Shown here piece by piece: positions 28,597 to 50,798 of a stretch of 64,000 nucleotides of DNA; position 1 is the first letter of the stretch; every line of letters starts with the position of its first letter. The translations under genes were made by a program, and so were the position numbers. The notes beneath the pieces were generated by a model. That model searched no databases, was not told the origin of the DNA, and worked only from the letters and a program-made list of their open reading frames with translations. The stretch comes from an uncultured Spirochaetia bacterium. GTDB taxonomy: Bacteria; Spirochaetota; Spirochaetia; CAKZLE01. Location of the stretch: the NCBI GenBank assembly GCA_937125225.1, contig CAKZLE010000025.1:1-64000 (forward strand). The letters are read 5' to 3'.

Positions 28597-28620
28597 GAAT
28601 TTTCTTTTATCACTGATATT

Positions 28621-28990: not shown

Positions 28991-29164
28991 GGGTTCTCAA
29001 TAAACGACCAGTGAGCATCTCAATGGGAGTATTATTGGGGTGAAAGCTTCATACACCCCCATGTGTTGTACCCACCGGGATTAAAGATTCTATTTACCTT
29101 CCTACCCACTCATAGGAATACTGTTTTGCTGTAATCTCTCTTATTCTTTAAGGGGAGGTTCCCC

Positions 29165-29602
29165 TTGAAACCTAGATGGAAGCAGTATTCTCATTTCGAA
29201 CGACTACAGCTGCTTGAATTATATGATCAGAACGATAAAGAGCTGACTATGGAACAGTTCTGTGAACTGCATGAGATCAGTAAGTGGACCCTGATACAGT
29301 GGATTCGTGATAGGAAGAACAAGACTGGAGTATTTGAGAAGCGAATCGATAAGCTGCCTGAGGGGGCAAAGCCTGAGAAACCTCTCTTCTTCACCCATAG
29401 TGCTGATAAGGTAGTCGTAGATCAGGATAAAGAGCGGATCATCGAAAACGAAAGAAACACTGTCAGGGAGATCAAGAGAGAAGACTCAACACCCAGGAAT
29501 CTCCTCTTGCGAAGAGGTTCCTGGGTGATCGAGATCCCTGCAGAGTTCGATGCCGATGAATTGAAGAGACTCCTTACCGTTATCAGTGAAGTAGAAACTT
29601 AA
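29165..29602 (+). CDS. Orphan IS66-family TnpA-like protein
   Basis: 145 residues. The N-terminal HTH (LTMEQFCELHEISKWTLIQWIR) and the C-terminal strand-helix GSWVIEIPAEFDADELKRLLTVI match TnpA of IS66 elements, a small DNA-binding accessory protein of unknown precise role. The start TTG 29165 is preceded by a strong AAGGGGAGG site. TnpB and the large TnpC are absent. Directly downstream is a GH66 pseudogene lacking its N-terminus, so this is probably the surviving end of an element that inserted in that gene. Confidence 0.7.
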   Translation: MKPRWKQYSHFERLQLLELYDQNDKELTMEQFCELHEISKWTLIQWIRDRKNKTGVFEKRIDKLPEGAKPEKPLFFTHSADKVVVDQDKERIIENERNTVREIKREDSTPRNLLLRRGSWVIEIPAEFDADELKRLLTVISEVET

Positions 29603-29608
29603 TAACCA

Positions 29609-30992: not shown

Positions 30993-31195
30993 TTCCATCT
31001 ATGCACATATTGAGAGGACAATGACCTTGTCTTCATACGGTATGAATATCCTTGGAGATCTACTACATCTACAAGATGGATGAGTTGATAGTTTATAACT
31101 ATCACTTTTGTGTTCAGAGAGTAAAATATGCCTTTATGTTTTTATATAAATATATAAATAAATAAAGCTGTACTTTATTCTATTGACTTTGCATG

Positions 31196-31211
31196 ATGGT
31201 AGTAATACCAT
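31196..31211 (+). promoter_or_regulatory. Palindrome at the ATPase promoter/start
   Basis: ATGGTA-GTAA-TACCAT is a perfect inverted repeat ending six bases before ATG 31218. TTGACT lies upstream at 31183-31188. No Shine-Dalgarno sequence is present. It may be an operator over a leaderless start. Confidence 0.45.
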
Positions 31212-31217
31212 GAAAGT

Positions 31218-32432: not shown

Positions 32433-32543
32433 TACGTGTAATCGTCAGATTTCTTTACAAAGAATAGATTAGAAGATAACCTGAGTCTATTGAGTGAAGA
32501 TATTGGAAACACATAATGAGGATGGAAAGAGAGTTTTAACTAA

Positions 32544-34931
32544 ATGAAAACTACAAAATCTCAAGCTATGAATAGGATTGATGTTATTGAAGATCGGCTT
32601 TCTCAGTTAGATCAAGAAAGGCAGTCCTTACTTGAAGAGTTACAAAGCTTAAGAGATGATCTTCAAGAAGAAACTATATATATTGGCTCTGCTTCACAAG
32701 CATTTATTCCTGAGACACCAGAAGAGAAACTCGAATTATATCTTTCACTATTTCGATGCCGATCAGATGTATATCCAAAATTCTGGAAAAACACTAAAAC
32801 TGGGAAAACTGGGTATAGCCCGGCATGTGAGAACGAATCGAATCGACCTGTTTGTCAGAAACCAAAGGTTAGATGTTCCCAATGTGAACATCAAAGGTTT
32901 TATCCATTTGATCAGAAAGTGATAAAGAATCATCTTACAGGATTTCAATCTGTAGGTGCTTATGCGATTAATCAGCAGGATCAATGTATTTTCTTGGCTG
33001 CTGATTTTGATAAGTCAACTTGGAAGACAGATGTGTTCTCCTATCAAAAAGCAGCCTCTGAGATTGGTGTTGAAGTGGCTATTGAGATCTCAAAATCTGG
33101 GAATGGTGCACATGCTTGGATATTCTTCAGTCAATTGATACCGGCACGAGTTGCTCGTACCATGGGAGAACTGATACTTTCAAGAGCCTTAGATCTTTCT
33201 GATTCCTTCGAACTTGATAGTTATGATCGATTCTTTCCCAATCAGGATCTGATACCTTCTGGGGGCTTTGGCAATTTGATATTTCTTCCATTGCAAAAAA
33301 CATATAGGAATAAAAGTACTACGGTTTTTGTAGATCATGAATGTTCGATAATTAAGAACCCATGGAAGTACCTGGCCGGTATTCATAGGTTATCATTGAC
33401 TCAAGTAGAGACATTAATACATGAGTATGTTAAAGATACCGATTCTATAACGGTCTCTCAATCAATCATACAGCAACATCTCCTGCCTTATGATCAAAAA
33501 TACCATGGTTCTATTGTTTTGAGATTGCAGGGACAGATTGTCATCTCCTTAAGGCAATTACCTAATCCTATATTGAAACAACTACTCAAGATGGCAACTA
33601 TATCCAATCCAAAATTCTTTCAAGCCCAACGTATGAGATTCTCTACCTGGGATATACCAAAATATATCTTCTGTGGAAATAATGATAAGGATTTTGTGTT
33701 CTTTCCCAGAGGCTTAAGAGATAGGATTATTGAACTACTCACTGAACAGGGGTTTTCTGTAAAATTACAAGACGAACGAAATGTTGGGAAAGAATTGAAA
33801 ATCAAGTTCATAGGTGAACTATATGATTATCAGAAGCCTGTTGTTGAAAAGATGGCAAAGATAGATATGGGGGTTATGGTTGCCCCAACAGGAACAGGGA
33901 AAACGGTAATGGCAACAAGTCTAATCGCCCAGAGAGCATGTAGCACTCTGATCCTGGTTCATCGTAGTACGTTGATACAGCAATGGATAGTGGCCATAAC
34001 TACAGGTATAGAGGAGATAGAGAAAAAAGATATTGGCGTTCTAGGTGCTGGAAGAAGAAAACTGAAAGGTAACATAGATATCGCCATGCTACAGTCTCTT
34101 GCTAGAAAGGAGGATCTGAAAACCCTTACCAAGGATTATGCTTTTGTTATTGTAGATGAATGTCATAGAGTCCCCACGGTTACTTTTGAACCTGTTCTCC
34201 AGAGTTTGCGTTGTAGATATATACTAGGATTAACAGCAACTCCAAAAAGGAAAGACCAATTCCAGTCAATCATATATATGCAATGCGGGGGTATTGCTGC
34301 ACAACTTTCAGATATTAATCTTGCAAAGCAAGACCGAGAGGTCTCCTTCATTGAGACTAATCTACCTGAGATTCAGGGGAAGCATAATATTACTCAATTG
34401 TGGGATTTCATCTGTTCTTCTGAAGAACGTAATAATCGAATAGTTGATACCATCGTATCTGCTATTAAGAAAGACATTTCCCCAATCATTATTTCAGACA
34501 GGCTAGAACATATTGAGATGATAAGAACTTTACTGCAAGAACGCACTGATGTAGATATTTTTGTTCTATCGGGTCATGTCAAGAAAAAAGAACGAAATAG
34601 TATAATCTGGCAGATGAAAGAACATCTTGGAGATCGAAGTTCCTGCTGCCTTTTTGCTACAGGATCACTAGTAGGAGAAGGATTCGATTTGCCAGAGTTA
34701 AACACGATGATACTTACTATGCCAATATCATTCTCGGGAAGATTAACCCAGTATGTGGGGAGACTTCATAGGCAAGTAGGTGAGGAAAAGAAACATATCA
34801 TGGTATATGATTTTGTTGATAGTGTTTCAGGAATGACTATTTCTATGTTCAAGAAACGAATTTCTGCTTATAAGAAATTAGGATACAAATTGAAACTTGA
34901 AAAAGATAGCAATCTGATAAAATACCTATAG
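32544..34931 (+). CDS. Primase-helicase fusion of the TOTE conflict type
   Basis: 795 residues. A short N-terminal coiled coil (residues 10-45) and a Cys cluster (VCQKPKVRCSQC near 106) precede an archaeo-eukaryotic-primase-like domain with LAADFDKSTW (Asp pair near 154) and SKSGNGAHAWIFF near 184. A superfamily 2 helicase follows: VAPTGTGKTV near 446, VIVDECHR near 536, GLTATPKRKD near 565, and the C-terminal ATGSLVGEGFDLPELN and QYVGRLHR motifs near 710-750. This order is that described for TOTE (transposon- and telomere-associated) conflict systems. Intact. It may defend against invading DNA or serve a mobile element. Confidence 0.8.
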   Translation: MKTTKSQAMNRIDVIEDRLSQLDQERQSLLEELQSLRDDLQEETIYIGSASQAFIPETPEEKLELYLSLFRCRSDVYPKFWKNTKTGKTGYSPACENESNRPVCQKPKVRCSQCEHQRFYPFDQKVIKNHLTGFQSVGAYAINQQDQCIFLAADFDKSTWKTDVFSYQKAASEIGVEVAIEISKSGNGAHAWIFFSQLIPARVARTMGELILSRALDLSDSFELDSYDRFFPNQDLIPSGGFGNLIFLPLQKTYRNKSTTVFVDHECSIIKNPWKYLAGIHRLSLTQVETLIHEYVKDTDSITVSQSIIQQHLLPYDQKYHGSIVLRLQGQIVISLRQLPNPILKQLLKMATISNPKFFQAQRMRFSTWDIPKYIFCGNNDKDFVFFPRGLRDRIIELLTEQGFSVKLQDERNVGKELKIKFIGELYDYQKPVVEKMAKIDMGVMVAPTGTGKTVMATSLIAQRACSTLILVHRSTLIQQWIVAITTGIEEIEKKDIGVLGAGRRKLKGNIDIAMLQSLARKEDLKTLTKDYAFVIVDECHRVPTVTFEPVLQSLRCRYILGLTATPKRKDQFQSIIYMQCGGIAAQLSDINLAKQDREVSFIETNLPEIQGKHNITQLWDFICSSEERNNRIVDTIVSAIKKDISPIIISDRLEHIEMIRTLLQERTDVDIFVLSGHVKKKERNSIIWQMKEHLGDRSSCCLFATGSLVGEGFDLPELNTMILTMPISFSGRLTQYVGRLHRQVGEEKKHIMVYDFVDSVSGMTISMFKKRISAYKKLGYKLKLEKDSNLIKYL

Positions 34932-35099
34932 CATAAATTGTACAACAGGTTATCAGATGAAATAGGGGTTTCTGACTAATTATGAAAAAAATTGTATGAT
35001 AGGTTAAACTTTAATAAAAAAATATTTGACCTGAACATGCAAACCATGACAATAGAAGTATATAGCGATTTAATAATATATGATACGAGAGGGTCTTCC

Positions 35100-35480
35100 A
35101 TGGGTATAGCTAATTTTTAAGAATGGTTCAAAATGGATAAGGGCCGATCTTCATCTGCATACTCAAGCGGATAAGGAGTTTAGGTGTTCAGGAGATGAAG
35201 ATTTCTATTTATCAAATAATGTAGACGGTTTGGATAAAGCTGGAATTAAACTTGGGGTAATCACTAATCACAAAAAAAATGATAAAAATGAGTTTATTGC
35301 ACTAAGAAAGACTGCAGCAAAGAAAGAGATTCTCCTACTTCCGTGTGTTGAATTATCTGTGAATGATGGTTCTAATGGCATTCATACCTTGATAGTGTTT
35401 AGTGATCAAGGGCTTGAAGGTAATCAACTCAAAAGTCGCAGTTATCTGATCAAGCAACAGAATCCAATCTCTTAGCGAGT
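35100..35480 (+). pseudogene. TrlF-like PHP-domain gene, frameshifted and cut by an IS4 relic
   Basis: From ATG 35100 the frame stops at TAA after six codons, but removing one T from the T5 run at 35114-35118 restores MGIANFKNGSKWIRADLHLHT and continues through VITNHKKND, LPCVELSVNDGSNGIHTLIVFSD. The DLHLHT and CVEL motifs are the metal-binding start of a PHP domain as in TrlF-type PHP-SMC ATPases. The gene ends at the junction with the IS4 copy near 35480. Only about 125 of an expected 900 or more residues remain. Confidence 0.7.
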
Positions 35481-35489
35481 ATGGGAGGG

Positions 35490-36240
35490 ATGGAGGACAA
35501 GAAGATCTTAATGAGCTCCTGACGATCATCATCTGCAAGACTTAATGATTCTGAAACGGCTTGGAGAAGTGCTGAAAGAATGAGCATGAGAGATTCCTGA
35601 TAGGTAATATCCTGCAGTTCATCGAAGGCATCAAAGAAAAGATCACCGATAGATCGGGTATCTTGATGAAGTCGTTGTAGTTCCGCAAGCATGATGTATT
35701 GGGCACAGGTGATTGCTGTATGGGCGGTAATCGCATCATAGTTTCGAGAACTGCAGCCTTTAACCATTTTCAAATAGGATTTAGCTACTTTGAAGAAGAC
35801 TTCAATAGCCCAACGTTTTCCATAGAGCCCGATGATTCCATCTTCATCTAAAGACGTGTCAGTTGAGAGAAGCACAAGGTAGTCATTCCGATTACTCCGG
35901 TTACGGACAAATACCAATCGAGAAGGAATCCTACCCCCATCTTTATGAGAGACCATTACTGAGACGGAAAGTAGATACCGAGACCTTCCTCTACGCTTCT
36001 TGCAGCTGTTAAAGATATCTTTGACAGATTGTCTCCTCCCTTCAAATTCGTAGTAGATCTTCTTTGATTTCTTCACCATAGCAACCGTAGGTACCCTAAA
36101 GCTGAGATCTTCAGGATCAATGCAGGGAATGCAAACCAGGAATCAAATAACACATAAGATGCCTTGATACCTGCAGCTTTAGCCTGTTTTAGCAAAACGA
36201 GGGTAGTATCAGGAGCAGACTGCTGAGCAAGTACACCAGG
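35490..36240 (-). pseudogene. IS4-family transposase relic (copy 2)
   Basis: The C-terminal 60% of a transposase closely related to copy 1. The main frame (36079 to 35450) carries YGKRWAIEVFFKVAK and GCSSRNYDAITAHTAITCAQ. Upstream, in another frame, TTLVLLKQAKAAGIKASYVLFDSWFAFP is recognisable, joined by a frameshift near 36090. Everything before about 36240 is missing, and the C-terminus diverges from copy 1 after residue FL near 35490. The two copies differ by many substitutions, so they are separate old arrivals rather than a recent duplication. Confidence 0.75.
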
Positions 36241-37772: not shown

Positions 37773-38696
37773 TTATGAAATAGCTGGCTTCATAGTTTCA
37801 GTCTCTGTTCTGAAGTAGTTATAGAACTGCTGGCAGAACTTTGATAGTCTTTCCATGCCAACAATCGGTCTACTATAGGTATTGAGTACTTCAACTGTAG
37901 ATTCAGGGAATAGATTAGCTATCATAGATGTCTCTATAGCATCGGGGCTACACCTGTTTATACAAACGTTGTGTATCTTTATCTCAGTATTAGATTGAAT
38001 GTTTTTAATGAAGTACAAACTTTGTTGGTTTAAGATTTTCTTTGTTGTGACTAAATTCATTTCTACATAATGAGAATCCATAAGTTTGGAATTCAGACTT
38101 TCATATTGGATAAGTAAGTTCTTTATCAATAGCAGGTTCATTTCTTCGATCTTCAATAAGGGTTGGTGGGAAGTCTGTTCTTTTCTTAAGGTATTCAAAA
38201 GTATGGACTTCTGCTGAATTATGGCTTGAAGATGTTTTATAAGCATGAAGGAGAGTGATCTTACTTTTGCATAGGTCAATAGCGATGGGAAATCAATATA
38301 AATATCATCATATTCGTTCATGCAAATTGCTTCATTAAACAATGAAAGAATTGTCAAGGTTTCTGACTCTGGAGAAAATGCAAAAAGTTCAGGAACATCT
38401 TGTATTCTCCCTTTTTTTGAGAACAAGGTATCGATTTGTATCTTCTTTGGTAAAGAGATCGCCTCTTTATGGTTATGCGTTTTCTTACATGAAAAATGTG
38501 ACAGGATAAGATTTCTAGAGAGGCTCTTCTTTTTACTCCCAATGTTGAGTTGAAAAATCGATTCTAAAGGCTTTTTCGAATCTAATGAGAGAAGTAGTGT
38601 TTTATTCTGATGCATAGCAGATCTAATAGCTGCCATCGATGCCCATGTTGATTTTCCGCTTCTCTCATTCCCCGTGAAAACATGTATTTTGGCCAT
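37773..38696 (-). CDS. ArsA/GET3-like P-loop ATPase, divergent
   Basis: 307 residues beginning AKIHVFTGNERSGKSTWASMAAIRSA. The P-loop TGNERSGKST at residues 8-17 is followed by KTLLLSLDSKKPLESIFQLNIG, the layout of ArsA/GET3-type SIMIBI ATPases where VLLVSTDPAxNL is usual. The signature Lys of the deviant Walker A (KGGVGKT) is replaced by Arg or Glu here, and the middle is shortened. Known relatives deliver tail-anchored or other membrane cargo or act in arsenite export. The C-terminal half (residues 180-300) is not recognisable. Next to a degenerate response regulator and opposite an envelope operon. Confidence 0.6.
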   Translation of the reverse strand: MAKIHVFTGNERSGKSTWASMAAIRSAMHQNKTLLLSLDSKKPLESIFQLNIGSKKKSLSRNLILSHFSCKKTHNHKEAISLPKKIQIDTLFSKKGRIQDVPELFAFSPESETLTILSLFNEAICMNEYDDIYIDFPSLLTYAKVRSLSFMLIKHLQAIIQQKSILLNTLRKEQTSHQPLLKIEEMNLLLIKNLLIQYESLNSKLMDSHYVEMNLVTTKKILNQQSLYFIKNIQSNTEIKIHNVCINRCSPDAIETSMIANLFPESTVEVLNTYSRPIVGMERLSKFCQQFYNYFRTETETMKPAIS

Positions 38697-38972
38697 AATT
38701 AACTCCCTTTGTGTGGTTTTGATATAAAAATATGAACTGATGTATGTCTTTTCTGGTATTCCCGTAAGAAGATGATTTGAAGATAAACAGAATGAATATA
38801 ACTCAAACCATCTTTACATGATCAACCTAGATAAATATCTCTCCTTAGCTAATAAGAATTTAGACTTTTAGTTAAATCTAAAGAAAACTGTGATTATCTC
38901 ATGTATTGTTATAATTCTATGGAGAGGACCTCTCACTATATCGGTGCATCATGATTACCATTTACACCGAAT
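38697..38972. other. Intergenic stretch between ATPase and regulator genes
   Basis: AT-rich with no open frame and no clear hairpin. It probably holds the promoter of the ATPase gene (minus strand). Confidence 0.3.
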
Positions 38973-39644
38973 CTAATTAGAGGAAACCCGAACATCGTGG
39001 ACTAATTTCTCTCCATACCTATACAATTCTATCATTGAATGAATATTGAGTTTTTTGAAAATATTCGACTTATGAGCAGAAACGGTCTTAACACTAATAT
39101 GAAGTAATGAACTGATCTCGCTATTAGGTTTCCCTTCTAGTAGTATCGAGAAGATCTCGTGCTCTCTTGCTGTAAGTATATTTGTTGTTTGAAGACTTCT
39201 TCTAGGTGAATTCTGTTCACGATACCCATTTGCTATTATCTGAGATACTTGATCACAATAATATAACCCCCCAGATCTGACTTTAATAATTGCCTTTATG
39301 AGTACAGATATTGGGTTAGAGCTGCATACAATACCTGAGACACCAATTTTTATGCATTCTAATACTTGAAAAGAGGATGAGATATCTGAATACATGATGA
39401 TTTTGCACTCAGGATAGTTGAATTTATATTCATAACAAAACGTTACAATGTCGATATCTACTAGATTGTCACTAGTCAGAATGATATCTGGTTTTAATGA
39501 GGTGTAGTCTTTCATGCTATTCAAACCACAAGAATAGGTTGATATAACCTCTAATTGATGAGAATCATTTAGCATTGCGGTAAGAGCTTCAAGCATTAAA
39601 GTATGTTTATCTAAAAGAAATAAAGAGATCCTTTTTTTAGGCAT
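38973..39644 (-). CDS. LuxR/NarL-type regulator with degenerate receiver domain
   Basis: 223 residues: a receiver-like domain (1-120) and a LuxR C-terminal HTH (TAREHEIFSILLEGKPNSEISSLLHISVKTVSAHKSNIFKKLNI, residues about 157-200). Key receiver residues are altered. The acidic pair is D12-K13 instead of DD, and the phosphorylated Asp position in PDIILTS is Ser58, with Asp59 beside it. DNA binding should be intact while classical phosphorylation is doubtful, so it may respond to another signal or act by dimerisation. Divergent from the lipoprotein operon at 40071, which is the obvious target. Confidence 0.8.
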   Translation of the reverse strand: MPKKRISLFLLDKHTLMLEALTAMLNDSHQLEVISTYSCGLNSMKDYTSLKPDIILTSDNLVDIDIVTFCYEYKFNYPECKIIMYSDISSSFQVLECIKIGVSGIVCSSNPISVLIKAIIKVRSGGLYYCDQVSQIIANGYREQNSPRRSLQTTNILTAREHEIFSILLEGKPNSEISSLLHISVKTVSAHKSNIFKKLNIHSMIELYRYGEKLVHDVRVSSN

Positions 39645-39814
39645 TTACACCCCCCTGAATGTAAGTACCCCCTACTCATTTCCCTAAATTATAAGTTACT
39701 TTAAAGACTATATATATAAGCTGATATTTATATGGAAGTAAGAAAATACTTAGGACATCATAAAAAGCTACATATATGATAAGTGCTATGGCATGAATAT
39801 GCTGAATTTCTAAA

Positions 39815-39866
39815 TATGATAGTGTTGTTTAGGGGAGGATCCGCTTAAAATAAACAAACTATCATA
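39815..39866 (+). promoter_or_regulatory. Long stem-loop in the divergent intergenic region
   Basis: TATGATAGTGTTGTTTA (39815-39831) is complementary to TAAACAAACTATCATA (39851-39866) except for one bulged base, with a 19-base loop containing GGGGAGGATCC. There is no T tract. It lies between the regulator start (39644) and the lipoprotein operon (40071), and could be a regulator site, a leader structure or part of a small RNA. Confidence 0.55.
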
Positions 39867-40033
39867 GATATAGGTGTCTTCTCTTCTCAAATCATCTTTA
39901 GCGAGCAATTTTTATTTATAGCTATACAGAATATGACCATCTAGGTTCTTTCTAAGACTAATCCTATATATCAAATAGAATATACTAAGACATCTATAAA
40001 CTCTATCTGTACATAATACAAAATCATTTAGCT

Positions 40034-40068
40034 TATAATTATCAAATAGATAAGCTATTGGGAGAGGA
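40034..40068 (+). promoter_or_regulatory. -10 box and ribosome-binding site of the envelope operon
   Basis: TATAAT at 40034-40039 is followed by GGGAGAGG just before ATG 40071. A -35 match is weak (TGTACA near 40009), consistent with activation by a regulator. Confidence 0.5.
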
Positions 40069-40070
40069 TT

Positions 40071-40748
40071 ATGTTAAAAAAGTTAATGCTTAGTTTCTGT
40101 ATTTTGGTTTGTTTACTAATTGCTGCCTGTTCTTCGACAAATAGTATTGGGTCTGTTGGTGAGTTACCAAATAGATGGTGGGAAAAGTCAAGAGGGAGCA
40201 TTGAGAGTGCTCTCAGGTCAGAGGGGAAGGGTTACTACTCAAATGTTTTAGCATTTGTCGGAGAAAGTGATTCTGTCAAGAACTATTCAAAATCACAGGC
40301 TTTGGATTTTGCTAAGTTAGATGCTAATTCAAAACTCTCAGAGTATATCATAACAAGAACGACAACGATTTTAAGAGATTCAGTGGAATCTGTACTTTCC
40401 AGAGAGACAGATGGTAGCTCTGATGAGGCAATAGAAAGAAAGATAAACGAAATATCTAATAATATGCAATCTTCAATATCTGTTGCACAGTTCTCTTCAT
40501 TTATGATTGAAGGGAATCATACCGAAGAAGAGGAACTCAATGGAATAAAGTATTATCATGGATGGGTTTGCTGTACTATTCAGGATGATATCGTAAAAGC
40601 GATTCAAGAGATCCAGAAAGAGGCCTTTGAGACAGTTATTAGTGCAGCAGAGAATTATGCACCTGTCATGAGCAAAATACAGGAAGACACCTCGATAAAG
40701 ATCGCCGAAGTCATGTTGAACGACCTTGGTGGAAATTCTACAGATTAA
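40071..40748 (+). CDS. LPP20-like lipoprotein
   Basis: 225 residues with a lipoprotein signal peptide (LIAACSS, Cys at about residue 22). The mature part follows the LPP20 pattern: LAFVGESDSVKNYSKSQALDFAKLDANSKLSEYI, then a helical stretch and YYHGWVCCTIQDDIVKAIQEI. LPP20-type domains occur in outer-membrane lipoproteins such as FlgP and in FlgT. First gene of a four-gene operon, 19 bases before a second LPP20-like gene. Likely outer-membrane anchored and part of a complex with the next two products. Confidence 0.7.
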   Translation: MLKKLMLSFCILVCLLIAACSSTNSIGSVGELPNRWWEKSRGSIESALRSEGKGYYSNVLAFVGESDSVKNYSKSQALDFAKLDANSKLSEYIITRTTTILRDSVESVLSRETDGSSDEAIERKINEISNNMQSSISVAQFSSFMIEGNHTEEEELNGIKYYHGWVCCTIQDDIVKAIQEIQKEAFETVISAAENYAPVMSKIQEDTSIKIAEVMLNDLGGNSTD

Positions 40749-40767
40749 GTGATCAATCGATTATTAT

Positions 40768-42123
40768 ATGAGAAATAAAAATAGGATAATACAAGTATTC
40801 ATCATTATGATCATGAGTACGATCCTTTTAAATAGCTGTAAAGTGATCTCTTTTTTTGATCCTCACTGGGTCTCCCACACTCCGAATTCAAATAGCAGTG
40901 TCATCGTAGCCGTGGGTGGCCCAGGGGGCTCTTTAAAAGAGGCAAGGTTAGATGCCCTAAAACAATTATCAGGAATTATAAACACTCAAGTATCTACTTC
41001 AATAAGTAACTATACGGCTATTTCATATAATGAGATTTCTCGAGAGATTGAGGAAAAAAGTAGTTCATGGGTGGAATCGGAATCTGATTCTATTGTGATT
41101 GGGATTCATGAAGATGAACGGTGGTTTGATAAAAAAACAGATAGTTGGTGGGTACTCGTTTCTATTAGTAAAGTGGATCTGAAGAAATCTATTCAGGCGA
41201 CTGCAGAAGAGTTAACTAGAAAGAAAGATAAGATTAGAAAGAATTCTTTAATTGCCCAAGATCTGATTGACTCCATGTTGGTGAATATTCTAGATAGACC
41301 CGTATCATATCAACTCCATGCAATCTCTGATGCTTTGCATACGATACATAAATTGGAATTCTCGGAGGAGATATTCTTCGAAGTGGATTTAGGGTATCAA
41401 CATGCAATCTCTTTTCTTGAAAGCTTGATCAAGCAAATGATTGCTTCAATTTCATTGCATTCTGATAAAGAGTATATTGTTCTTTATCCTCATGAGGTTA
41501 GCAGAGTCTCATTTTCTGCAAACTCAGAACTTGGAACATTGGGTTCTCTGTCTTGGGCTGTTCGGGAAGACCCTAGTGATAAACAGCAGATTGTTGTGAA
41601 TGACTATTATGGGAATGGTTATGTTGATCTGATCGGTGATAAGGACAAGTCCAATAAGGGCTTCATTACAGTATCATTAGATATAAGTGATTTAGCTATT
41701 GATCTAAAAGTAACTAGTTATCCCATTATACGAATACCAACTCAAAAGTATATTGGAAGATTTGGGATAGTCACACAGATTGATGCACCACCCAATTACC
41801 GGGCATATTCAGAACAGTCTCTATTAGAGGTCATTTCTGCAAATACAGAATTCAATATGGAGAATGATCCTGATATCTATCCTAGAATGACAGCAACCTT
41901 ACATTATAAAGAAGGGACAAAGAACAGTAAGTTAGTAGCTATTCATACCTCCGTGACCTTTTTATGGGAACAAAAAGATGGAGCCTCCACAGTGTATCAA
42001 ACGGAATACTTCAAAGGCTTTGGTGGAGACAATGAAAGAGCATTTGAAGATGCTTTCAAAAAGAATATTGCATATATAAAGAAAGATAAGAAATTCCAAA
42101 AATTTTTTGAGGAGTGTTTCTAA
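40768..42123 (+). CDS. Large LPP20-like lipoprotein
   Basis: 451 residues. The signal peptide ends ILLNSCKV (Cys about residue 24). The N-terminal region has the LPP20 pattern IVAVGGPGGSLKEARLDALKQLSGII and WWVLVSISKVDLKKSI. The long middle part is beta-rich, and the C-terminal segment has a second LPP20-like tail (TEYFKGFGGDNERAFEDAFKKNIAYI). Two such regions in one chain suggest a periplasmic or outer-membrane scaffold, somewhat like FlgT. Its TAA shares a base with the ATG of the next gene, so translation is coupled. The exact role is not known. Confidence 0.65.
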   Translation: MRNKNRIIQVFIIMIMSTILLNSCKVISFFDPHWVSHTPNSNSSVIVAVGGPGGSLKEARLDALKQLSGIINTQVSTSISNYTAISYNEISREIEEKSSSWVESESDSIVIGIHEDERWFDKKTDSWWVLVSISKVDLKKSIQATAEELTRKKDKIRKNSLIAQDLIDSMLVNILDRPVSYQLHAISDALHTIHKLEFSEEIFFEVDLGYQHAISFLESLIKQMIASISLHSDKEYIVLYPHEVSRVSFSANSELGTLGSLSWAVREDPSDKQQIVVNDYYGNGYVDLIGDKDKSNKGFITVSLDISDLAIDLKVTSYPIIRIPTQKYIGRFGIVTQIDAPPNYRAYSEQSLLEVISANTEFNMENDPDIYPRMTATLHYKEGTKNSKLVAIHTSVTFLWEQKDGASTVYQTEYFKGFGGDNERAFEDAFKKNIAYIKKDKKFQKFFEECF

Positions 42124-42941
42124 TGAAAAGACGATTGTATACTTACTTATTTCTATTAGTTTTGTTAATGGTTTCCTCTTTGATGTTTGCTGCAGCACCT
42201 GATACGGTAGCTGTTATTCCCTTTAATGATAATGTGATCTCAACTGGTGAAGCGATTGCGTTATCCGATATTCTTGAGAATCGATTGGCTAAATTCGGGA
42301 GTTTTAATCTTGTCGAACGTAAAGCGATAGAGAATATCATGGAAGAATTGAATTTCAGTACTACAGACTTTGTAGATCAGGAAACGGCCGTTAAAGCTGG
42401 AAAAATGCTCTCTTCTCAATGGCTGATAATGGGTTCAGTAAGCAAACTAGGTAATGAGTATTCAATGAATGTGAAACTAGTTAATACAGAAACAGGTCGA
42501 ATAGTAACAGGCGCATATGGAGAGTCAAAATCCATCTCAGGATTAAAGGATGACGTTGAGTCCATAGCAAAAGAGTTGTCTCAGTATCTTTTTGCTCCCT
42601 TCACGAATGGAATTGAATTCTCTGCTTTAACGATGGTTTATGATATGGAATTCCAATCCTTTGGCGCAAAAGCAAGTTTTGTAATGAAATATGATGAATT
42701 GATTTCTCTAGGGGTGTATGGAGTTGTATTAAGAAAGAATATAGATGGAGAGTTTGGTTTCGATTTGGGTGGGAAAGTGATATTTGGTGACCCAAGAAAA
42801 CAAGCTTTAAGCCTTTCAATCGGAGCTCTCCCATCAATAGGTGTGTATTTTAGGAATATTACATTAGATTTTTATCCAACAATGCTTCTCGGAGTTGAAG
42901 ACTCCTTTGGGATTTCTGTTGGTGTTATGTTAGAACAATAA
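42123..42941 (+). CDS. CsgG/FlgO-like protein with beta-rich C-terminal half
   Basis: 272 residues from ATG 42123 (an in-frame ATG at 42114 lies inside the previous gene). A cleavable signal (SSLMFAAAPDTV) is followed by a CsgG-type domain: VAVIPFNDN, LSDILENRLAKFGSFNLVERKAIENIMEEL, GKMLSSQWLIMGSVSKLG and KLVNTETGRIVTGAYG (residues 25-140). From about 160, alternating hydrophobic strands (SLGVYGVVLRKNIDGEFGFDLGG, FRNITLDFYPTMLLGVED) look like outer-membrane beta strands. CsgG forms the curli export pore. Here no lipobox is seen, so this is a relative, not CsgG itself. Confidence 0.7.
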   Translation: MKRRLYTYLFLLVLLMVSSLMFAAAPDTVAVIPFNDNVISTGEAIALSDILENRLAKFGSFNLVERKAIENIMEELNFSTTDFVDQETAVKAGKMLSSQWLIMGSVSKLGNEYSMNVKLVNTETGRIVTGAYGESKSISGLKDDVESIAKELSQYLFAPFTNGIEFSALTMVYDMEFQSFGAKASFVMKYDELISLGVYGVVLRKNIDGEFGFDLGGKVIFGDPRKQALSLSIGALPSIGVYFRNITLDFYPTMLLGVEDSFGISVGVMLEQ

Positions 42942-42962
42942 TTAGGGGATGGAGGAAAGGAT

Positions 42963-45900
42963 ATGAAAAGAATATTATGTATTGTAACTGTTTTGGTCGC
43001 ATTTCTTCTATCTTCTTGTGATTTCTCAATACAAGAATGGTTTGATTCGAAGACAGACGCAAAGGTAGAAGTAGGGTATCCTGAAGGTCTTACTGATGCA
43101 TATATCAATAAGTTAATAACCTTAGATGGTAGTGAGAGTATATTTGGTCCTAATGACGAAGTAACATTTACATGGACTATGGTGAAACCGGATGGTTCAA
43201 ATAGTATACTACAAAGTGTTATAGAAAATGGTTCTTCAAATACTAGAAAAAGAAAGTTCACTCCAGATATTGAAGGAACTTATAGGATCTCTTTAACAGT
43301 ATTAGATGATGACAATGATAGTAATACAGTCACCAAGAGTATTGTAGTTAAAGATAAACCTTCGGGACCACCTTCCACTCTTGCCGTTGCTGAAAAGAGT
43401 TCGACAACTATAAAACTTTCCTGGTCAGCAGTAGAGAACGCTTCTTATTATTCATTGTATAGGGATCTTTCTTCGGGAGGAAGTTTCTCAGAAAAAGTAT
43501 ATCAAGGTCCTAATCTGCAATTTATCAATTCTTCTCTAGAACCAGGGAAGGCCTACTTTTATATGGTGATTGCTGGAAACCCTGCAGGATATACAGGGCG
43601 TTCTTCAAGTGTTCAAGGAATTACTGATTTAAAGAAACCAGCGAACTTCCAGTCTTTAAGTAATACATTAACAGATTGCGATCTTAGCTGGGATAGTGCT
43701 GCTAATGCTACAGAGTATATAGTCGAAGGTAGTAAATCTGCTGATGGAGGGTTTGTAGAGTTATACAGTGGAGGAGCTAATTCCTGTTCTTTACATAGTC
43801 TTGATAGTGGAAATATCTATTTCTTTAAAGTAAAGGCTAAGAATACACTTATAGAAGGTGAGTTCACGAGTACAATTCGGGTTAACTTGAAGCTGACTCT
43901 CCCAGGGCAGCCTAAGAATTTGCAGAAGATTAGTGGGACTCAATCTTCTATAACAATTGGATGGAATAGTGTATCAACCGCAGATTCTTATAAAATATAT
44001 CGAGCTCAAAATTCAGAGGGGCCATATAGTTTAATCAAAAGTAACAATCAAGGCACCTCTTTTACCAATACAGGACTTTCAAGAGGAACAGCGTATCACT
44101 ATAAGGTGAGTGCAAATAGCGATGTTATTGATGAAGGGGCGAATATATCATTAGAAGGGCCGAAATCATCAAGTATTTCAATTACTACAATACCTGCAGA
44201 ACCCACAAGTATTCGAGTCAGTGATTCAACGACCTCTTCACTTAAAGTCTCATGGAATGCGGTAAATGGTGCGACAGGATATAAGATATATAGTTCACTT
44301 TACAGTAATAGTTCCTTTACTGAAGTTGGGACTTCTTCTGGAACATACCATAATGTTACAGGTCTTAATGATGATACAACCTACTATTTTAAAGTAAAGG
44401 CCTATAATACTACCGGTTATAGTTCATATTCTTCATCTGCTAATGGTAAGACTCAACTTAAGCCTCTAGTGGCACCAACTGGGTTGGCACTTTCAAGTAT
44501 TACAAATCAGAGCATGACTCTTTCTTGGACTCCTGTAAGTGGAGCAACTTCCTACAAGATCTATAAATCAACAAGTTCTGGGAATTCTACTAGTTATTAT
44601 ACGAGTACCTCTTCAACTAGCAAATCAATTACTGGACTAAATTCAGGGAGGACCTATTACTTCTGGGTTACAGGTGTTAGAAATAATGTTGAGGGTCTAA
44701 AAAGTTCTTCAAAATCTGGATTAACAAAACCAACATACCCCAGTGGGGTGTCTGTAGGCTCTGCCACTACTTCATCTCTAAGAATCTCATGGAATTCAGT
44801 TGCAGGAGCTAGTGGGTATAAAGTTTATAGATCAACTAGTAGTAATGGGTCATATTCTTATATTGCGACAACTTCTTCTACATCATATACCAATATTGGT
44901 TTAACAGCGGGTAAAAAGTATTATTACAAGGTTCAAGCATATAATAATACAGGTAGTAGTAGTTATAGTAGCTATTCTTATGATTGGACTAAAGATGCAA
45001 TTTATACAATTTTTGCATCATCAGGCTCGGGAGGGAGTATTTCTCCTAATGGTGAAATTTCAGTCTCTCAAGGTGGAAGTAAAACATTTTATATCTCACC
45101 CTCATCTGGTTATTCAATATCTAATGTAACTGTGGATGGTGGGAATAAAGGCTCTATCAGTAGTTATACATTCTCAAATGTTTCTTCTAATCATACTATT
45201 TCTGCAACCTTTACACCAATAACTTATCGTATAACGGCTTCTTCTGGTACAGGGGGAAGTATATCTCCTAGTGGCAACGTGACAGTAACACGAGGATATT
45301 CAAAAACTTTTAGCATTTCTCCAAGCTCTGGTTATTCAATATCAAAAGTATATGTTGATGGTTATAATCAAGGTGCTATTAGTAGTTATCGGTTTAGTAA
45401 TGTAACGACAAACCATACAATATCAGCTGAGTTTGTCAGTATTAAGGTAGATACTGAAGCAAAAGATGTTACGATGTATATACCATCTGGAAATCCTCGA
45501 AATGACAATCCCACATACTTAAACTATACGTTGAAAAATAATGGTCCAGCCACTCTATCATCAGATCAATATAAAATAGATGTTTACTTATCAACAAATA
45601 GAACTATTACATCATCTGATACTCACGTTGGTAATAATCTGATAAATCTAAGTATGTATTCAGGAAGAACAAATTCTTATTCAGCAACGAATAATGGATT
45701 GAGTTATTTGAAGATTCCTTCAAATATGGTCGAGGGTGATTATTATGTAGGATTGCATCTGACTCCAATGAGTGGATCCCCCCAAGAAATATCAGATTCA
45801 AATAATTGGGTTGATGGGAACAAAATCACGATTCCTTTAGAATTTGTGTTAAAGAATCAATCATCTCATAGTATTGATGTTTTAAAATTCCGAAAGTCAG

Positions 45901-46094
45901 GGACATCCTCTTGGGGACCTGATATTCTTTCCACACATACGACTCCGGGAATGACACGCTATCACAATTTAGATCTAGATAATAATGATTATTTTGATAT
46001 CTGGGTAGAAGATACAAATTACGGTGTCTATTGGTATGTTACCAATAGGAAAATTGGGGGTTATTCGAAATATACATTTACAATCTCTGATTAA
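42963..46094 (+). CDS. Surface lipoprotein with PKD, Fn3 and InlB-type repeat domains
   Basis: 1043 residues with a lipobox FLLSSCD (Cys about 19). Domains in order: one PKD-like (about 38-133, ITLDGSESIFGPNDEVTFTWT), six fibronectin type III (about 139-680; typical LSWSAVENASYYSLYR, VSWNAVNGATGYKIYS), two InlB B-repeat-like modules (about 684-830, GGSISPSGNVTVTRGYSKTFSISPSSGY), a CARDB-like domain (about 835-960) and an unassigned C-terminal beta domain. The last three Fn3 domains are very Ser/Thr/Tyr-rich. An adhesin or glycan-binding surface protein is likely. Last gene of the operon, closed by a terminator. Confidence 0.85.
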   Translation: MKRILCIVTVLVAFLLSSCDFSIQEWFDSKTDAKVEVGYPEGLTDAYINKLITLDGSESIFGPNDEVTFTWTMVKPDGSNSILQSVIENGSSNTRKRKFTPDIEGTYRISLTVLDDDNDSNTVTKSIVVKDKPSGPPSTLAVAEKSSTTIKLSWSAVENASYYSLYRDLSSGGSFSEKVYQGPNLQFINSSLEPGKAYFYMVIAGNPAGYTGRSSSVQGITDLKKPANFQSLSNTLTDCDLSWDSAANATEYIVEGSKSADGGFVELYSGGANSCSLHSLDSGNIYFFKVKAKNTLIEGEFTSTIRVNLKLTLPGQPKNLQKISGTQSSITIGWNSVSTADSYKIYRAQNSEGPYSLIKSNNQGTSFTNTGLSRGTAYHYKVSANSDVIDEGANISLEGPKSSSISITTIPAEPTSIRVSDSTTSSLKVSWNAVNGATGYKIYSSLYSNSSFTEVGTSSGTYHNVTGLNDDTTYYFKVKAYNTTGYSSYSSSANGKTQLKPLVAPTGLALSSITNQSMTLSWTPVSGATSYKIYKSTSSGNSTSYYTSTSSTSKSITGLNSGRTYYFWVTGVRNNVEGLKSSSKSGLTKPTYPSGVSVGSATTSSLRISWNSVAGASGYKVYRSTSSNGSYSYIATTSSTSYTNIGLTAGKKYYYKVQAYNNTGSSSYSSYSYDWTKDAIYTIFASSGSGGSISPNGEISVSQGGSKTFYISPSSGYSISNVTVDGGNKGSISSYTFSNVSSNHTISATFTPITYRITASSGTGGSISPSGNVTVTRGYSKTFSISPSSGYSISKVYVDGYNQGAISSYRFSNVTTNHTISAEFVSIKVDTEAKDVTMYIPSGNPRNDNPTYLNYTLKNNGPATLSSDQYKIDVYLSTNRTITSSDTHVGNNLINLSMYSGRTNSYSATNNGLSYLKIPSNMVEGDYYVGLHLTPMSGSPQEISDSNNWVDGNKITIPLEFVLKNQSSHSIDVLKFRKSGTSSWGPDILSTHTTPGMTRYHNLDLDNNDYFDIWVEDTNYGVYWYVTNRKIGGYSKYTFTISD

Positions 46095-46097: not shown

Positions 46098-46143
46098 ATG
46101 ATGGTAGTAAGGGTGTTTTTACCTTTACTACCATCATTTTTAC
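46098..46143 (+). terminator. Rho-independent terminator
   Basis: ATGATGGTAGTAA (from 46098) pairs with the TTACTACCATCAT arm ending at 46137, followed by a T run. It ends the envelope operon four bases after the last stop. Confidence 0.85.
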
Positions 46144-46984: not shown

Positions 46985-47920
46985 CTAGGAAGAGAATCGA
47001 GTTGACATCTGTTGAGATATCGCATGAAACTGATCGATCTCCATCTTCTGGGATGCTGTCATAGTTCTGAGACGTGCATCACTTCTTCTGCTTATAAGAT
47101 TAGTGAACACACCCTCTTTGATCAAAGAGTAGCGTGCGTTAGCAGGATAGAATTGATTCTCTATAGTTGAAGCTACTCCAAGGTAGTCCTGAAGTGCTTC
47201 TGCCTCAACTCCCATCTCCTTCCAATCATGACAGAGTCTGTGATAAAGGTCACTGTGGAAGTTAGTCATTATCCCACTATAGCCTGCATACCCAGCTTTT
47301 AAGCTGAGAAGTAGGGTAGCTGCATTTGCATTGAAGAACTTGAGAACTGAATCTTTTGCGAGCGTTGCTCTTTCTTCGATCATTGTAGGATCACAACAGG
47401 TATCTTTGATGAACTCGAAACGTCCTGTTTGGATAAGTTCTTTCACAAGGTCCGAAGAGATGATGCGTTTGTAGGGGTAGGGACATTCATAGAAGCCTAA
47501 GGGCAGGTCTTTGGGAAGTGCCTTCATGAGCTTGTGGAGATTCTTCAACCAAACTGAATCATCTTCTGAAATGCTTGCAAGTCTATTACTCACGAGAACA
47601 AGAGCATCAGCACCAGCTTCAGCCATCGCTGTGAGGTCATCTATTTGCCCCTCAATCGTATCACTCACATGACCTGAGGCCATGACAGGATAACGTCCGT
47701 CTGTGATTCGGACAGTCTCCTTACATAAAGAGAATCGTTCTTCTCTGCTGAGTTCGAACATAGCACTTGACTGACAAACAGCGAAAAGGCCATCGATACC
47801 TCGATCTATATACCAATCAATCAGTCGTTCAAGAGCTTCATAGTCAATACTCAGGTCGGTATTAAAAGGAGTCAGCATCGTTGGGTAAACACCCGAAGTA
47901 ATTTCTTTAATCATTTTCAT
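46985..47920 (-). CDS. DapA/NanA-type aldolase (N-acetylneuraminate lyase superfamily)
   Basis: 311 residues in a TIM-barrel DHDPS/NAL pattern: GVYPTMLTPFNTDLSIDYEALERLIDWYIDRGIDGLFAVC near the N-terminus, the Tyr motif GFYECPYPYKR and the Schiff-base Lys in FEFIKDTCCDP. The usual GGTTGE loop is replaced by CQSSAMFEL, so substrate differs from dihydrodipicolinate synthase. With a TRAP transporter and YhcH it probably cleaves a sialic-acid-like or other 2-keto-3-deoxy sugar acid. It lies 15 bases after the TRAP large subunit in one operon. Confidence 0.85.
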   Translation of the reverse strand: MKMIKEITSGVYPTMLTPFNTDLSIDYEALERLIDWYIDRGIDGLFAVCQSSAMFELSREERFSLCKETVRITDGRYPVMASGHVSDTIEGQIDDLTAMAEAGADALVLVSNRLASISEDDSVWLKNLHKLMKALPKDLPLGFYECPYPYKRIISSDLVKELIQTGRFEFIKDTCCDPTMIEERATLAKDSVLKFFNANAATLLLSLKAGYAGYSGIMTNFHSDLYHRLCHDWKEMGVEAEALQDYLGVASTIENQFYPANARYSLIKEGVFTNLISRRSDARLRTMTASQKMEIDQFHAISQQMSTRFSS

Positions 47921-47935
47921 ATTCCTGTTAATAAT

Positions 47936-49231
47936 CTACATTCCCAAAAGGGAAGGGACGAATGTAACGAGTTGTGGGAAATAGGTTACACAAAAGAGTA
48001 CACCGAAGAGCACGAGGAGCATAGGGAGGATCTCCCGTATGACCTCCTTCAACGGCGTCTTCGAAATACCAGAAACGACGAATAGGAGCATACCAAATGG
48101 TGGGGTTGAAAGCCCGATCATCATGTTAAGTGTGATCATGACACCAAAGTGTACAAGATCGATCCCTAGGGAGTTCACCAAGGGAAGCACTATGGGAATG
48201 AACACAAGAGTGATACACATCGTATCAATGAACATCCCAAGAATGATGAATACGATATTGATCAGAAGTAATAGAACATATCTATTCTGAGTAACTGTAA
48301 GTAACCAGTTTGCTACCAAGTCTGGTATATGTTCGATCGCTACTATATAGGAGAAGGCATATGCAGTCCCCACTAACAGAGAGAGCGTCCCCGTAGTCTT
48401 CACAGTCCTCAGGACTACACCTGCAAGATCTTTAAAACCCATAGCTCTGTAGACAAAGATGGATATGATGATGGCATAAAGAGCAGCTAGTGCTCCAGCT
48501 TCTGTAGGGGTGACAATCCCAGAGTAGATACCTCCGAGAAGGACCACAATAGAAAGAAGTGCAGGAAAAGCTTTAAGGGTTATTGCTAGTGTATCCCGAA
48601 GGGCAAGTTTTTCACCTCTAGGGTAATTTCTGATTCTCGCAATGACAGCTATATACCCCATGAGTGCGATCCCAACAAGTAGTCCAGGAACCATACCACC
48701 CATAAACAGAGCACCGATAGAAGCTCCAGAGAGCATCGAATAGAAGATCATAGGGATACTAGGGGGAAAGATCGGACCAATCGTTGCAGATGCCGCAGTT
48801 ATTGCACTGCTGAAGCCTCTCTCATACCCATGGTCATTCATCGCTTTGATCTCCATCATTCCAAGACCTGATGCATCTGCTAAAGCAGATCCAGTCATTC
48901 CGGAGAAGATGATGGAGGCAACAACATTCACGTGACCAAGAGCACCTCGTTTTCTTCCAACAAGGGCGTTTGCAAAGCTGAAGATCATATCAGTGACCTT
49001 GCCACTATTCATGACCTCTGCCATGAAAACAAACAAGGGTACTGCTATGAGCACGAATTTCGAGTTCATATTTGTCAAGAATTGTGAAGCGGCCATACTC
49101 AGATCAGCCGCAGGGCTTTGAGCTATAGCAAAATAGAATAAAGAAGCCATCAACATTCCAGGGGCTATAGGTATACGAATAAGGAAGATGAGTATGAAAC
49201 AGATGAGAAATACTAAAAGGGCAAGATTCAT
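47936..49231 (-). CDS. TRAP transporter large permease (DctM-type)
   Basis: 431 residues, about twelve membrane segments, of the DctM family: RIPIAPGMLMASLFYF, MNSGKVTDMIFSFANALVGRKRGALGHVNVVASIIFSGMTGSALADASGLG and ATIGPIFPPSIPMIFYSMLSGASIGALFMGG are highly conserved blocks. It drives sodium- or proton-coupled uptake of an acidic sugar with the small subunit and binding protein. Its start overlaps the DctQ stop by four bases. Confidence 0.93.
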   Translation of the reverse strand: MNLALLVFLICFILIFLIRIPIAPGMLMASLFYFAIAQSPAADLSMAASQFLTNMNSKFVLIAVPLFVFMAEVMNSGKVTDMIFSFANALVGRKRGALGHVNVVASIIFSGMTGSALADASGLGMMEIKAMNDHGYERGFSSAITAASATIGPIFPPSIPMIFYSMLSGASIGALFMGGMVPGLLVGIALMGYIAVIARIRNYPRGEKLALRDTLAITLKAFPALLSIVVLLGGIYSGIVTPTEAGALAALYAIIISIFVYRAMGFKDLAGVVLRTVKTTGTLSLLVGTAYAFSYIVAIEHIPDLVANWLLTVTQNRYVLLLLINIVFIILGMFIDTMCITLVFIPIVLPLVNSLGIDLVHFGVMITLNMMIGLSTPPFGMLLFVVSGISKTPLKEVIREILPMLLVLFGVLFCVTYFPQLVTFVPSLLGM

Positions 49232-49722
49232 ACTGATTCTCCTTTTCTTAAAGACTGAACATCCCTTACGATATCGATAAGATATCGGGCTATCATGAAT
49301 ACTAGGAATATGACAAATGGTAAGAATACTAGATCCATAGGGATCTTTAGAACATTTGATTTCTTATAACCCATAAAAAGGACATATTTCCAAGAGGGAA
49401 CCAATCCGATGGAAAAGGCGATCACTAGTAGGGAATTCCCCACGATTCTCATCCATGTTTGGGTTAAGGGTTTCACTGCGTCATATACTAGTGTGAACAC
49501 AACATGTGAATTATCTCTCTTTGCATAGATACCACCGAGAAGTGCTGTCCATATAAAGCAGATAAGGGAAAGTTCTAGGGTCCAGGTAAGTGGCTTTAGG
49601 AAATACCTAAAGAAGATCCCCAGGATGAAGACTAGGAATAGGGATACAAAGGCAACAAAGGGGATGTAGACTTCAACTGTATCAACAAGAAACTTCCCTA
49701 ATCGTCTTAATTTAGCAATCAT
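49228..49722 (-). CDS. TRAP transporter small permease (DctQ-type)
   Basis: 164 residues with four membrane segments and the DctQ pattern RYFLKPLTWTLELSLICFIWTALLGGIYAKRDNSHVVF. It pairs with the large subunit directly downstream (overlapping stop/start). A stable hairpin separates it from the binding-protein gene upstream, a common way of giving more binding protein than permease. Confidence 0.9.
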   Translation of the reverse strand: MIAKLRRLGKFLVDTVEVYIPFVAFVSLFLVFILGIFFRYFLKPLTWTLELSLICFIWTALLGGIYAKRDNSHVVFTLVYDAVKPLTQTWMRIVGNSLLVIAFSIGLVPSWKYVLFMGYKKSNVLKIPMDLVFLPFVIFLVFMIARYLIDIVRDVQSLRKGESV

Positions 49723-49743
49723 ATAAACACCTCAATAAAAGAA

Positions 49744-49769
49744 ATCCCGGCAAGGTCTCTTGCCGGGAT
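49744..49769 (-). terminator. Intercistronic hairpin between binding-protein and permease genes
   Basis: ATCCCGGCAAG (49744-49754) pairs with CTTGCCGGGAT (49759-49769) with a four-base loop. No long T tract follows on the minus strand (TTCTTTTA after two bases), so it may act as partial terminator or 3'-end stabiliser. Confidence 0.65.
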
Positions 49770-49781
49770 AATCATATATGA

Positions 49782-50798
49782 CTATTTTGCCATATTCTGG
49801 ACTTTTTCGTAAAGGTCCCAATCCCATTCTGCAGAGATCTCAGGGCTATCTACCATGTATGAGTTCTTTGCATATTCGACAAATGCTGGAACATCTGGAT
49901 CTTCGATGACAACCATGCCTTCTCCCTTGAAGAAATCAAGGATTCCTGCTTCAGTCTCAAGGTTCTGTGCATCACAATAAGCTCTTGACTTATCGACAGC
50001 TGAAAGAACCCATGCCTGCTGCTGTTCGGTGAGTGACTGCCATTTAGCTTCGTTCATAGTAGGCCAGGTTGAGTCAACAACGTGGTTTGTGAGAACGATG
50101 TATTTTGTTACTTCAAAGAACTTAGCATTCTTATCAGTTCCTAATGGGTTGTCCTGGCCTTCGACTGCACCAGTCTTTAGTCCCATATAGACCTCATTGA
50201 AAGCCATAGGAGTAGGATTTCCACCAAGAGCCTTTCCTAATGCGATCCATGATGGACTTCCTGGAGTTCTGAGTTTTACACCCGCCATATCTGCAGGAGT
50301 TCGAACAGGACCAACCTTTTCTACAAGGTTAAGCTGTCGTGTTCCAAGGTAATATGCACCAAGAGGTCTGATTCCCTGTGAGTCTACTACGTCCTGAAAT
50401 ACTTGTTCGCCAATCTCACCATTGAATACTGATGTCATGTGTTCATACCCTTGGAAGGTATATACAGCAGAGAACATTGATAGGTAAGGAACGAACTCAG
50501 CAAGCCATGGAGCACTAGTATAGACCATGTCTACGGTTCCCTGACGAACTGCTGCCTGTTCACCTTCCTGTGAATACAGCTGACCTGAATGGTATACATT
50601 CACTTTCATTGATCCACCTGAGAGACTCTCAAGCTCATCTTTGAATACGGTCATTGCTTCGGTGTGAGCATCCCCTGGTACACTAACTGATGAGAAGTTG
50701 ATCTCTACTACTTTTTCTAGGTCTTCTGCCTGTCCTGCAGCAAATACGAAAGTTGCTGAGAGAAGACAAACGAGCACGATTGATACTAATTTTTTCAT
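49782..50798 (-). CDS. TRAP substrate-binding protein (DctP-type)
   Basis: 338 residues with a signal peptide (VSIVLVCLLSATFVFAAGQAE). The mature part has the DctP family blocks SGGSMKVNVYHSGQLYSQEGEQAAVRQGTVDMVY and, near residue 170, PADMAGVKLRTPGSPSW with the conserved Arg that contacts the substrate carboxylate, followed by NEVYMGLKTGAVEGQDNP. It captures an acidic sugar in the periplasm. First gene of the operon and under the divergent promoter with FadR-type operators. Ligand inferred to be sialic-acid-like from the neighbouring lyase. Confidence 0.92.
   Translation of the reverse strand: MKKLVSIVLVCLLSATFVFAAGQAEDLEKVVEINFSSVSVPGDAHTEAMTVFKDELESLSGGSMKVNVYHSGQLYSQEGEQAAVRQGTVDMVYTSAPWLAEFVPYLSMFSAVYTFQGYEHMTSVFNGEIGEQVFQDVVDSQGIRPLGAYYLGTRQLNLVEKVGPVRTPADMAGVKLRTPGSPSWIALGKALGGNPTPMAFNEVYMGLKTGAVEGQDNPLGTDKNAKFFEVTKYIVLTNHVVDSTWPTMNEAKWQSLTEQQQAWVLSAVDKSRAYCDAQNLETEAGILDFFKGEGMVVIEDPDVPAFVEYAKNSYMVDSPEISAEWDWDLYEKVQNMAK

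Follow-up and report, generated by a model that had tools for sequence, protein, structure and literature searches.

A block of four genes in a contig of an uncultured Spirochaetia bacterium (GenBank assembly GCA_937125225.1, contig CAKZLE010000025.1) encodes two small lipoproteins, LppA and LppB, a CsgG-like protein with a predicted C-terminal barrel, and a large lipoprotein. The window, that is, the whole stretch of DNA analysed, comprises positions 1 to 64,000 of the forward strand of this contig, and the four genes together occupy positions 40071-46094. A preliminary description had read them as two LPP20-type lipoproteins, a CsgG-like protein and a 1043-residue lipoprotein in a tight operon; all four open reading frames (ORFs) and their spacings were confirmed as described. 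The genes and the elements flanking them are:

40071..40748, + strand: LppA, 225-residue lipoprotein, remote LPP20 relative with a GELPxxWW motif (from family search, profile comparison and relatives beside LPP20-domain genes)
40768..42123, + strand: LppB, 451-residue lipoprotein with an N-terminal LPP20 domain and a C-terminal domain that is weakly LptE/Cj1090c-like in the structural model
42123..42941 (GTG at 42114 possible as start), + strand: protein with a CsgG/LpoB-like domain, a predicted C-terminal eight-strand outer-membrane barrel and an ordinary signal peptide (P0005)
42963..46094, + strand: large lipoprotein, 1043 residues, with a PKD-like domain, six Fn3 domains and two InlB-type repeats; putative exchangeable cargo (P0006)
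46098..46137, + strand: intrinsic terminator with an 18-pair stem and a T-rich tail
38973..39644, - strand: LuxR-type response regulator, divergently oriented, whose receiver residues are altered; it may act locally and is not conserved in relatives
39645..40070: intergenic region between the regulator gene and lppA

There is good evidence that the four genes form one transcription unit closed by the large gene. LppA and LppB are separated by 19 bases, the LppB and barrel genes overlap (-1), and 21 bases, including a GGAGG site, precede the large lipoprotein gene. In the sequence TAATG at 42121-42125, the LppB stop codon overlaps the likely ATG of the CsgG-like gene, so that ATG 42123 is the most likely start, over GTG 42114. 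Three bases past the stop codon of the large gene begins the hairpin with its T-rich tail. Terminator-like sites as such are no more frequent in the window than expected by chance (3 found against 3.6 expected), but this one has by far the longest stem and is rightly placed. No promoter clearly above chance was found in the intergenic region 39645-40070. The operon had been proposed to share its regulatory region with a response regulator and an ArsA-like ATPase. The divergent response-regulator gene is real, and in its sequence the residues normally found at the phospho-Asp and Lys positions appear to be replaced. This regulator occurs only at the present locus; in many relatives, a divergent regulator of the XRE or WYL type takes its place. 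At 276 bases beyond the regulator gene lies the ArsA-like gene, which has no homologue in any related locus checked and was therefore rejected as a conserved component of the unit.

All three lipoproteins carry a recognizable lipobox (..LIAAC in LppA, ..ILLNSC in LppB and ..LLSSC in the large protein). The assignment of the two small ones to the LPP20 type holds directly for LppB, which scores 32.1 bits against a Pfam LPP20 cut-off of 25.9 bits and is the sole LPP20 match in the whole genome. LppA, by comparison, has neither an LPP20 match nor any other convincing family match in Pfam; its profile aligns with the N-terminal domain of LppB (E=4e-7), and, judged from this profile-profile comparison, it is a remote homologue of that domain. 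The structural model of LppB is poor overall (predicted template modelling score, pTM, 0.35), with a confident C-terminal domain at residues 331-440. The best structure matches of this domain are Cj1090c, a minor lipoprotein of Acinetobacter and LptE, with E-values of roughly 1e-4 to 1e-3 and a target template modelling score of up to 0.5 for a single domain of a poor model; an LptE-like fold is thus possible, not proven.

The LPP20 family also includes Lpp20 of Helicobacter pylori and the basal-disk protein FlgP, and the preliminary description had drawn an analogy with the flagellar outer-membrane rings built by FlgO, FlgP and FlgT. The LPP20 domain of LppB and the presence of FlgT among the structure matches of the third protein fit such a role. 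However, no flagellin N-terminal domain was detected in the 97%-complete genome in a search whose controls were detected, which makes flagellar rings unlikely. Moreover, ring-forming proteins carry a beta-hairpin insert after their first helix (PMC12222027), and the corresponding position in LppB, as also compared with FlgP, is modelled as a helix, at low confidence. We have rejected this explanation because of the missing flagellin domain and consider it extremely improbable.

The third protein has an ordinary signal peptide ending in AAA and no lipobox cysteine. Its model (mean predicted local distance difference test score, pLDDT, 74; pTM 0.51; two-sequence alignment; moderate confidence) contains an alpha/beta domain up to residue 159, followed by eight strands between residues 165 and 274, in agreement with the beta-rich C-terminal half noted earlier. 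The hydrophobicity of these strands alternates far more strongly than in shuffled sequence (3.04 vs 1.57 +/- 0.41). Foldseek returned TolB, LpoB, FlgT, PelC and GNA1162 as matches of the alpha/beta fold, with TolB and LpoB as the best (E=8.8e-8 for the LpoB fold). Small barrels of designed and natural origin (PagP, OmpA, NspA and OprF) matched less well, and the matches were assigned to the two parts of the protein by their fold types.

These features bear directly on the suggestion that the protein forms an oligomeric export pore of the CsgG type that secretes the large protein. Like CsgG, it has a CsgG-like alpha/beta domain, which would lie at the outer membrane; it scores above the cut-off of the Pfam CsgG family (40.3 vs 20.8 bits), whose domain can form rings, and dodecameric PelC is among its structure matches. 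Yet the family match is restricted to positions 34-104 of the 210 in the profile, CsgG ranks only 30th among the structure matches, and a CsgF partner was not matched in the genome, while the E. coli control was detected. The membrane strands of CsgG itself are hairpins inserted within the domain. In the third protein there is no space for such hairpins, and every membrane-type strand of the model follows the CsgG-like domain, giving the protein a C-terminal barrel of its own in place of a lipid anchor and inserted hairpins. The third protein is thus best described, on the basis of its model, as a predicted LpoB/TolB-like domain carried on its own small barrel, and not as a CsgG pore. We have rejected the pore on these anatomical grounds, namely the missing lipobox, the partial domain match, the position of the strands and the lack of CsgF, and regard it as very unlikely.

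The same structure matches raise a different possibility, in which the operon encodes an envelope-maintenance complex with similarity to LpoB, TolB or FapH. The barrel protein and the LPP20-type pair would then adjust the synthesis of peptidoglycan or the integrity of the outer membrane, with the large lipoprotein as a periplasmic linker or as a linked but functionally separate protein. Apart from the prominence of TolB and LpoB among the matches of the first domain, this idea is favoured by FapH of Helicobacter, which is encoded together with FlgP, a member of the LPP20 family, and protects the outer-membrane barrier (PMC11756786). LpoB, the N-terminal domain of TolB, PelC and GNA1162 are indeed the closest solved structures of the putative periplasmic domain, but none of them is fused to a small barrel. 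The third protein also matches Pfam LpoB (34.2 bits) but misses the LpoB equivalog cut-off by a wide margin (45.0 vs 110.55 bits), and its lack of a lipobox and its own barrel set it apart. Together with the patchy distribution of the unit and the exchange of adhesin-type cargo between loci (see below), these differences make a maintenance function unlikely.

The large lipoprotein has an N-terminal PKD-like match and six Fn3 domains in Pfam, and two divergent InlB-type repeats that were added by separate scanning. No good family match was obtained for its C-terminal region. This C-terminus shares the motif KN..S..ID.L.F.....WGPD.L with a 221-residue protein (L121 11445-12110) that is encoded near an LppB/CsgG locus in another genome (G046) and belongs to no Pfam family.

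A gene order without any counterpart elsewhere had been named as grounds for refuting the proposal; the searches did not bear this out and uncovered related arrangements in other spirochaetes. In the Spirochaetales metagenome-assembled genome M55B182 (G049), all four families lie together in a different order, with an Fn3 lipoprotein (in two reading frames) followed by the barrel protein, LppA and LppB, and similar sets occur elsewhere. Elsewhere in this genome, LppA and LppB form a pair on their own, as do Fn3 and barrel genes, indicating that the LPP20-type module and the barrel-cargo module can join in different orders. The genome under study itself contains, on contig 20, a second pair of a barrel protein and a PKD/Fn3 lipoprotein that lacks LPP20-type genes (L046 1106-4318, minus strand). 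Two near-identical recombinase-like genes are located on the same contig piece (5109-6137 and 12816-13844). Relatives of LppA are rare, being present in four of 393 genomes sampled across the phylum, this one included; an alignment-based search of the named genome collection retrieved five loci, all from Spirochaetes, and no relatives emerged when the collection was scanned directly with the barrel protein. The LppA relatives adjoin LPP20-related genes, in one case (G074) also a PKD/Ig-like lipoprotein. In another genome (G042), a CsgG-like gene is followed by an Fn3 lipoprotein, and a further one (G115) has a single ORF in which custom profiles detect CsgG-like and Fn3-like stretches. Since Pfam reported CsgG but no fn3 for this ORF, we consider it only tentatively as a fusion of the two. 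Other spirochaetes have proteins related to LPP20 or similar to CsgG/LpoB that contain a DUF4384 domain (L049 8985-10382, L053 7740-9989 and L116 1-903); in the L053 locus, LppA is followed by a lipoprotein with the FGE lectin fold.

The most extensive set of related units came from one genus of the Treponemataceae, the family of Treponema denticola, in which 118 genomes were searched. They contain 18 strong homologues of a CsgG-barrel protein, one of them cut by a contig end, and every complete one has Phe or Tyr as its last residue. In 10 of the 18 cases, the barrel gene is preceded by genes for a small protein, LppX, and an LPP20-type protein, giving the order LppX, LPP20-type, barrel, large lipoprotein; at least eight genomes have the LPP20-type pair, the barrel protein and a large lipoprotein together. 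The remaining eight homologues represent a two-gene version comprising the barrel protein and the large lipoprotein. Nearly all barrel genes are followed, mostly at a distance of 9-18 bases, by a lipoprotein whose mature form starts with Cys-Glu/Asp-Asn. Under a strict lipobox rule, a lipoprotein lies downstream of 13 of 16 barrel genes but of only 7 of 96 other genes (P = 7e-13, a figure that ignores shared ancestry). The eight large lipoproteins scanned join InlB-type repeats to LRR_5 or to the lectin-fold domain FGE. In a member of another family (G223), the order is LPP20-type gene, LppX, CsgG-barrel and InlB-repeat lipoprotein, where the first gene lacks a Pfam match and owes its LPP20-type label to its position and to a related gene in G335. 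Mature cargo lipoproteins (L156-L165) mostly have Glu or Asp directly after the lipid-bearing Cys, whereas most LppA/LppX-type proteins do not; this residue could possibly act as a sorting signal.

Profile comparisons identify the LPP20 domains (E=2.6e-11) and the CsgG-like domains (E=1.1e-12) of the window and the Treponemataceae units as homologous. LppX showed no similarity to the LPP20-type protein of its own operon.

Proteins of T. denticola extend this picture to the hypermutating targets of diversity-generating retroelements (DGRs). In a genome that matches strain ATCC 35405 by its coordinates (G247), the lipoprotein encoded at 2,125,639-2,126,709 has the exact published coordinates of the DGR target TDE2101 (PMC4891356). 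Its gene starts within the end of a gene for a barrel protein that lacks a CsgG-like domain (L199 5640-7543), and TDE2239 likewise directly follows such a gene, with a gap of 9 bases (L203 3145-5043). The two barrel proteins are 88% identical and thus paralogous, and the one next to TDE2239 is 34% identical over 155 residues to a CsgG-barrel protein of the Treponemataceae genus (E=5e-15). These DGR targets (TvpA type) resemble the units described above in that FGE lipoproteins directly follow a barrel gene, as they also do after CsgG-barrel genes in the related genus, but differ from the window, whose cargo is of the Fn3/PKD type and whose barrel is joined to a CsgG-like domain. The finding that barrels without this domain nevertheless lie beside lipoproteins points to the barrel, and not to the CsgG-like domain, as the element that constantly accompanies the lipoprotein. 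The paper found on these DGR targets does not appear to mention a barrel partner gene.

Across the loci, the cargo ranges from Fn3/PKD proteins to combinations of InlB with LRR_5 or with the FGE lectin fold. The recurrence of the gene unit in distant spirochaetes, each time with a different large protein, suggests a previously undescribed device that holds interchangeable binding proteins at the cell surface. We propose, with a probability of about 0.45, that the operon specifies a unit for display or anchoring at the outer membrane, in which the binding lipoprotein is replaceable and the LPP20-type accessory optional. The recurring families and the swapped adhesin-type cargo strengthen the anchoring and display function put forward in the preliminary description, while its analogies to the CsgG export pore and to flagellar rings have to be abandoned. 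The third protein would reach into the periplasm with its LpoB/TolB-like domain and span the outer membrane with its small beta barrel. It may be dedicated to the lipoprotein encoded immediately downstream, helping to place or hold that lipoprotein on the cell surface. Both LPP20-type lipoproteins would sit at the inner face of the outer membrane, serving the barrel protein as an optional periplasmic collar, adaptor or chaperone, and the large lipoprotein would act as a replaceable binding module. What the analysis demonstrates is the anatomy of the operon, the repeated co-occurrence of its families, the repeated occurrence of the two-gene version and the substitution of the large protein by other domain types, along with a barrel at the level of prediction; the locations at the outer membrane and the surface, the physical contact between the partners and the route of the lipoprotein are inferred.

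SusCD and Slam provide examples of partnerships between barrels and surface lipoproteins, and an eight-strand barrel is too narrow to export a folded protein. With a barrel this small, passage through a pore is unlikely, and co-folding or co-assembly with the lipoprotein is the nearest precedent; it may be the route to the surface here, by analogy with RcsF and OmpA, for which co-folding of lipoprotein and barrel has been reported. All of these systems work like the proposed unit in that a barrel protein cooperates with a surface lipoprotein; the likeness drawn is one of function and not of sequence, and the partnership at the window locus is a predicted one.

Several observations weigh against this proposal. 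The barrel model rests on two sequences only, with its pTM of 0.51, and the third protein ends in LEQ, without the usual terminal aromatic residue. The unit is absent from the only genome available from the same family, and five of the seven DGR targets of T. denticola have no barrel neighbour. The relationship of LppX to LppA is marginal (E=4e-4, probability 34%), and the barrels of the window and the Treponemataceae units match in position and predicted form but are no more alike in sequence than shuffled columns. Given these last two results, the notion of a single system is supported by common domains and a common gene order or grouping rather than by orthology of all four genes, and similar units may have been assembled more than once. 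A different explanation would dispense with a joint mechanism altogether and regard the genes as separate surface-protein modules that lie side by side by chance in a variable region. The LPP20-type pair and the barrel-cargo pair are also found apart, the barrels are not conserved in sequence, and the surrounding DNA has a low G+C content and transposase-like genes close by. However, at least three families have a barrel protein directly beside a large lipoprotein, with gaps of about 9-21 bases or overlaps, and we judge chance adjacency to be distinctly unlikely.

If an outer-membrane display unit is indeed encoded here, it is tempting to speculate that it belongs to a broader and as yet undescribed way in which spirochaetes deliver lipoproteins to the surface. 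Small outer-membrane barrels would in most cases be joined to a periplasmic CsgG/LpoB-like domain, frequently with an LPP20-type pair to assist them, and each would serve the lipoprotein encoded beside it; the cargo swapped in evolution (Fn3, LRR, InlB or lectin fold) would include the hypermutating DGR targets of T. denticola. We regard this generalization as possible but somewhat unlikely. The surface delivery of large spirochaete lipoproteins is only partly understood, and a dedicated barrel with interchangeable lipoproteins would provide a concrete candidate machine. In T. denticola, it would link the surface display of hypervariable lectin-fold proteins to a specific partner gene. The component domains are known; their combination with exchange of cargo was not found in the literature searched, nor was any pairing of LPP20 with CsgG, which is weak evidence as the search covered open-access articles.

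Elsewhere in the window, a low-G+C run (0.24-0.38) at 1699-18606 contains glycosyltransferase-like and other polysaccharide-type genes and appears to be an accessory glycan cluster. The region at 22479-36079, near the operon, is variable and includes several transposase-like genes or fragments (24194-25554, 29165 and 35450) as well as AAA-type ATPases. Downstream, at 46985-50798, TRAP-type transporter genes and a dihydrodipicolinate-synthase-like gene likely serve the uptake of sugar acids, an ordinary function.

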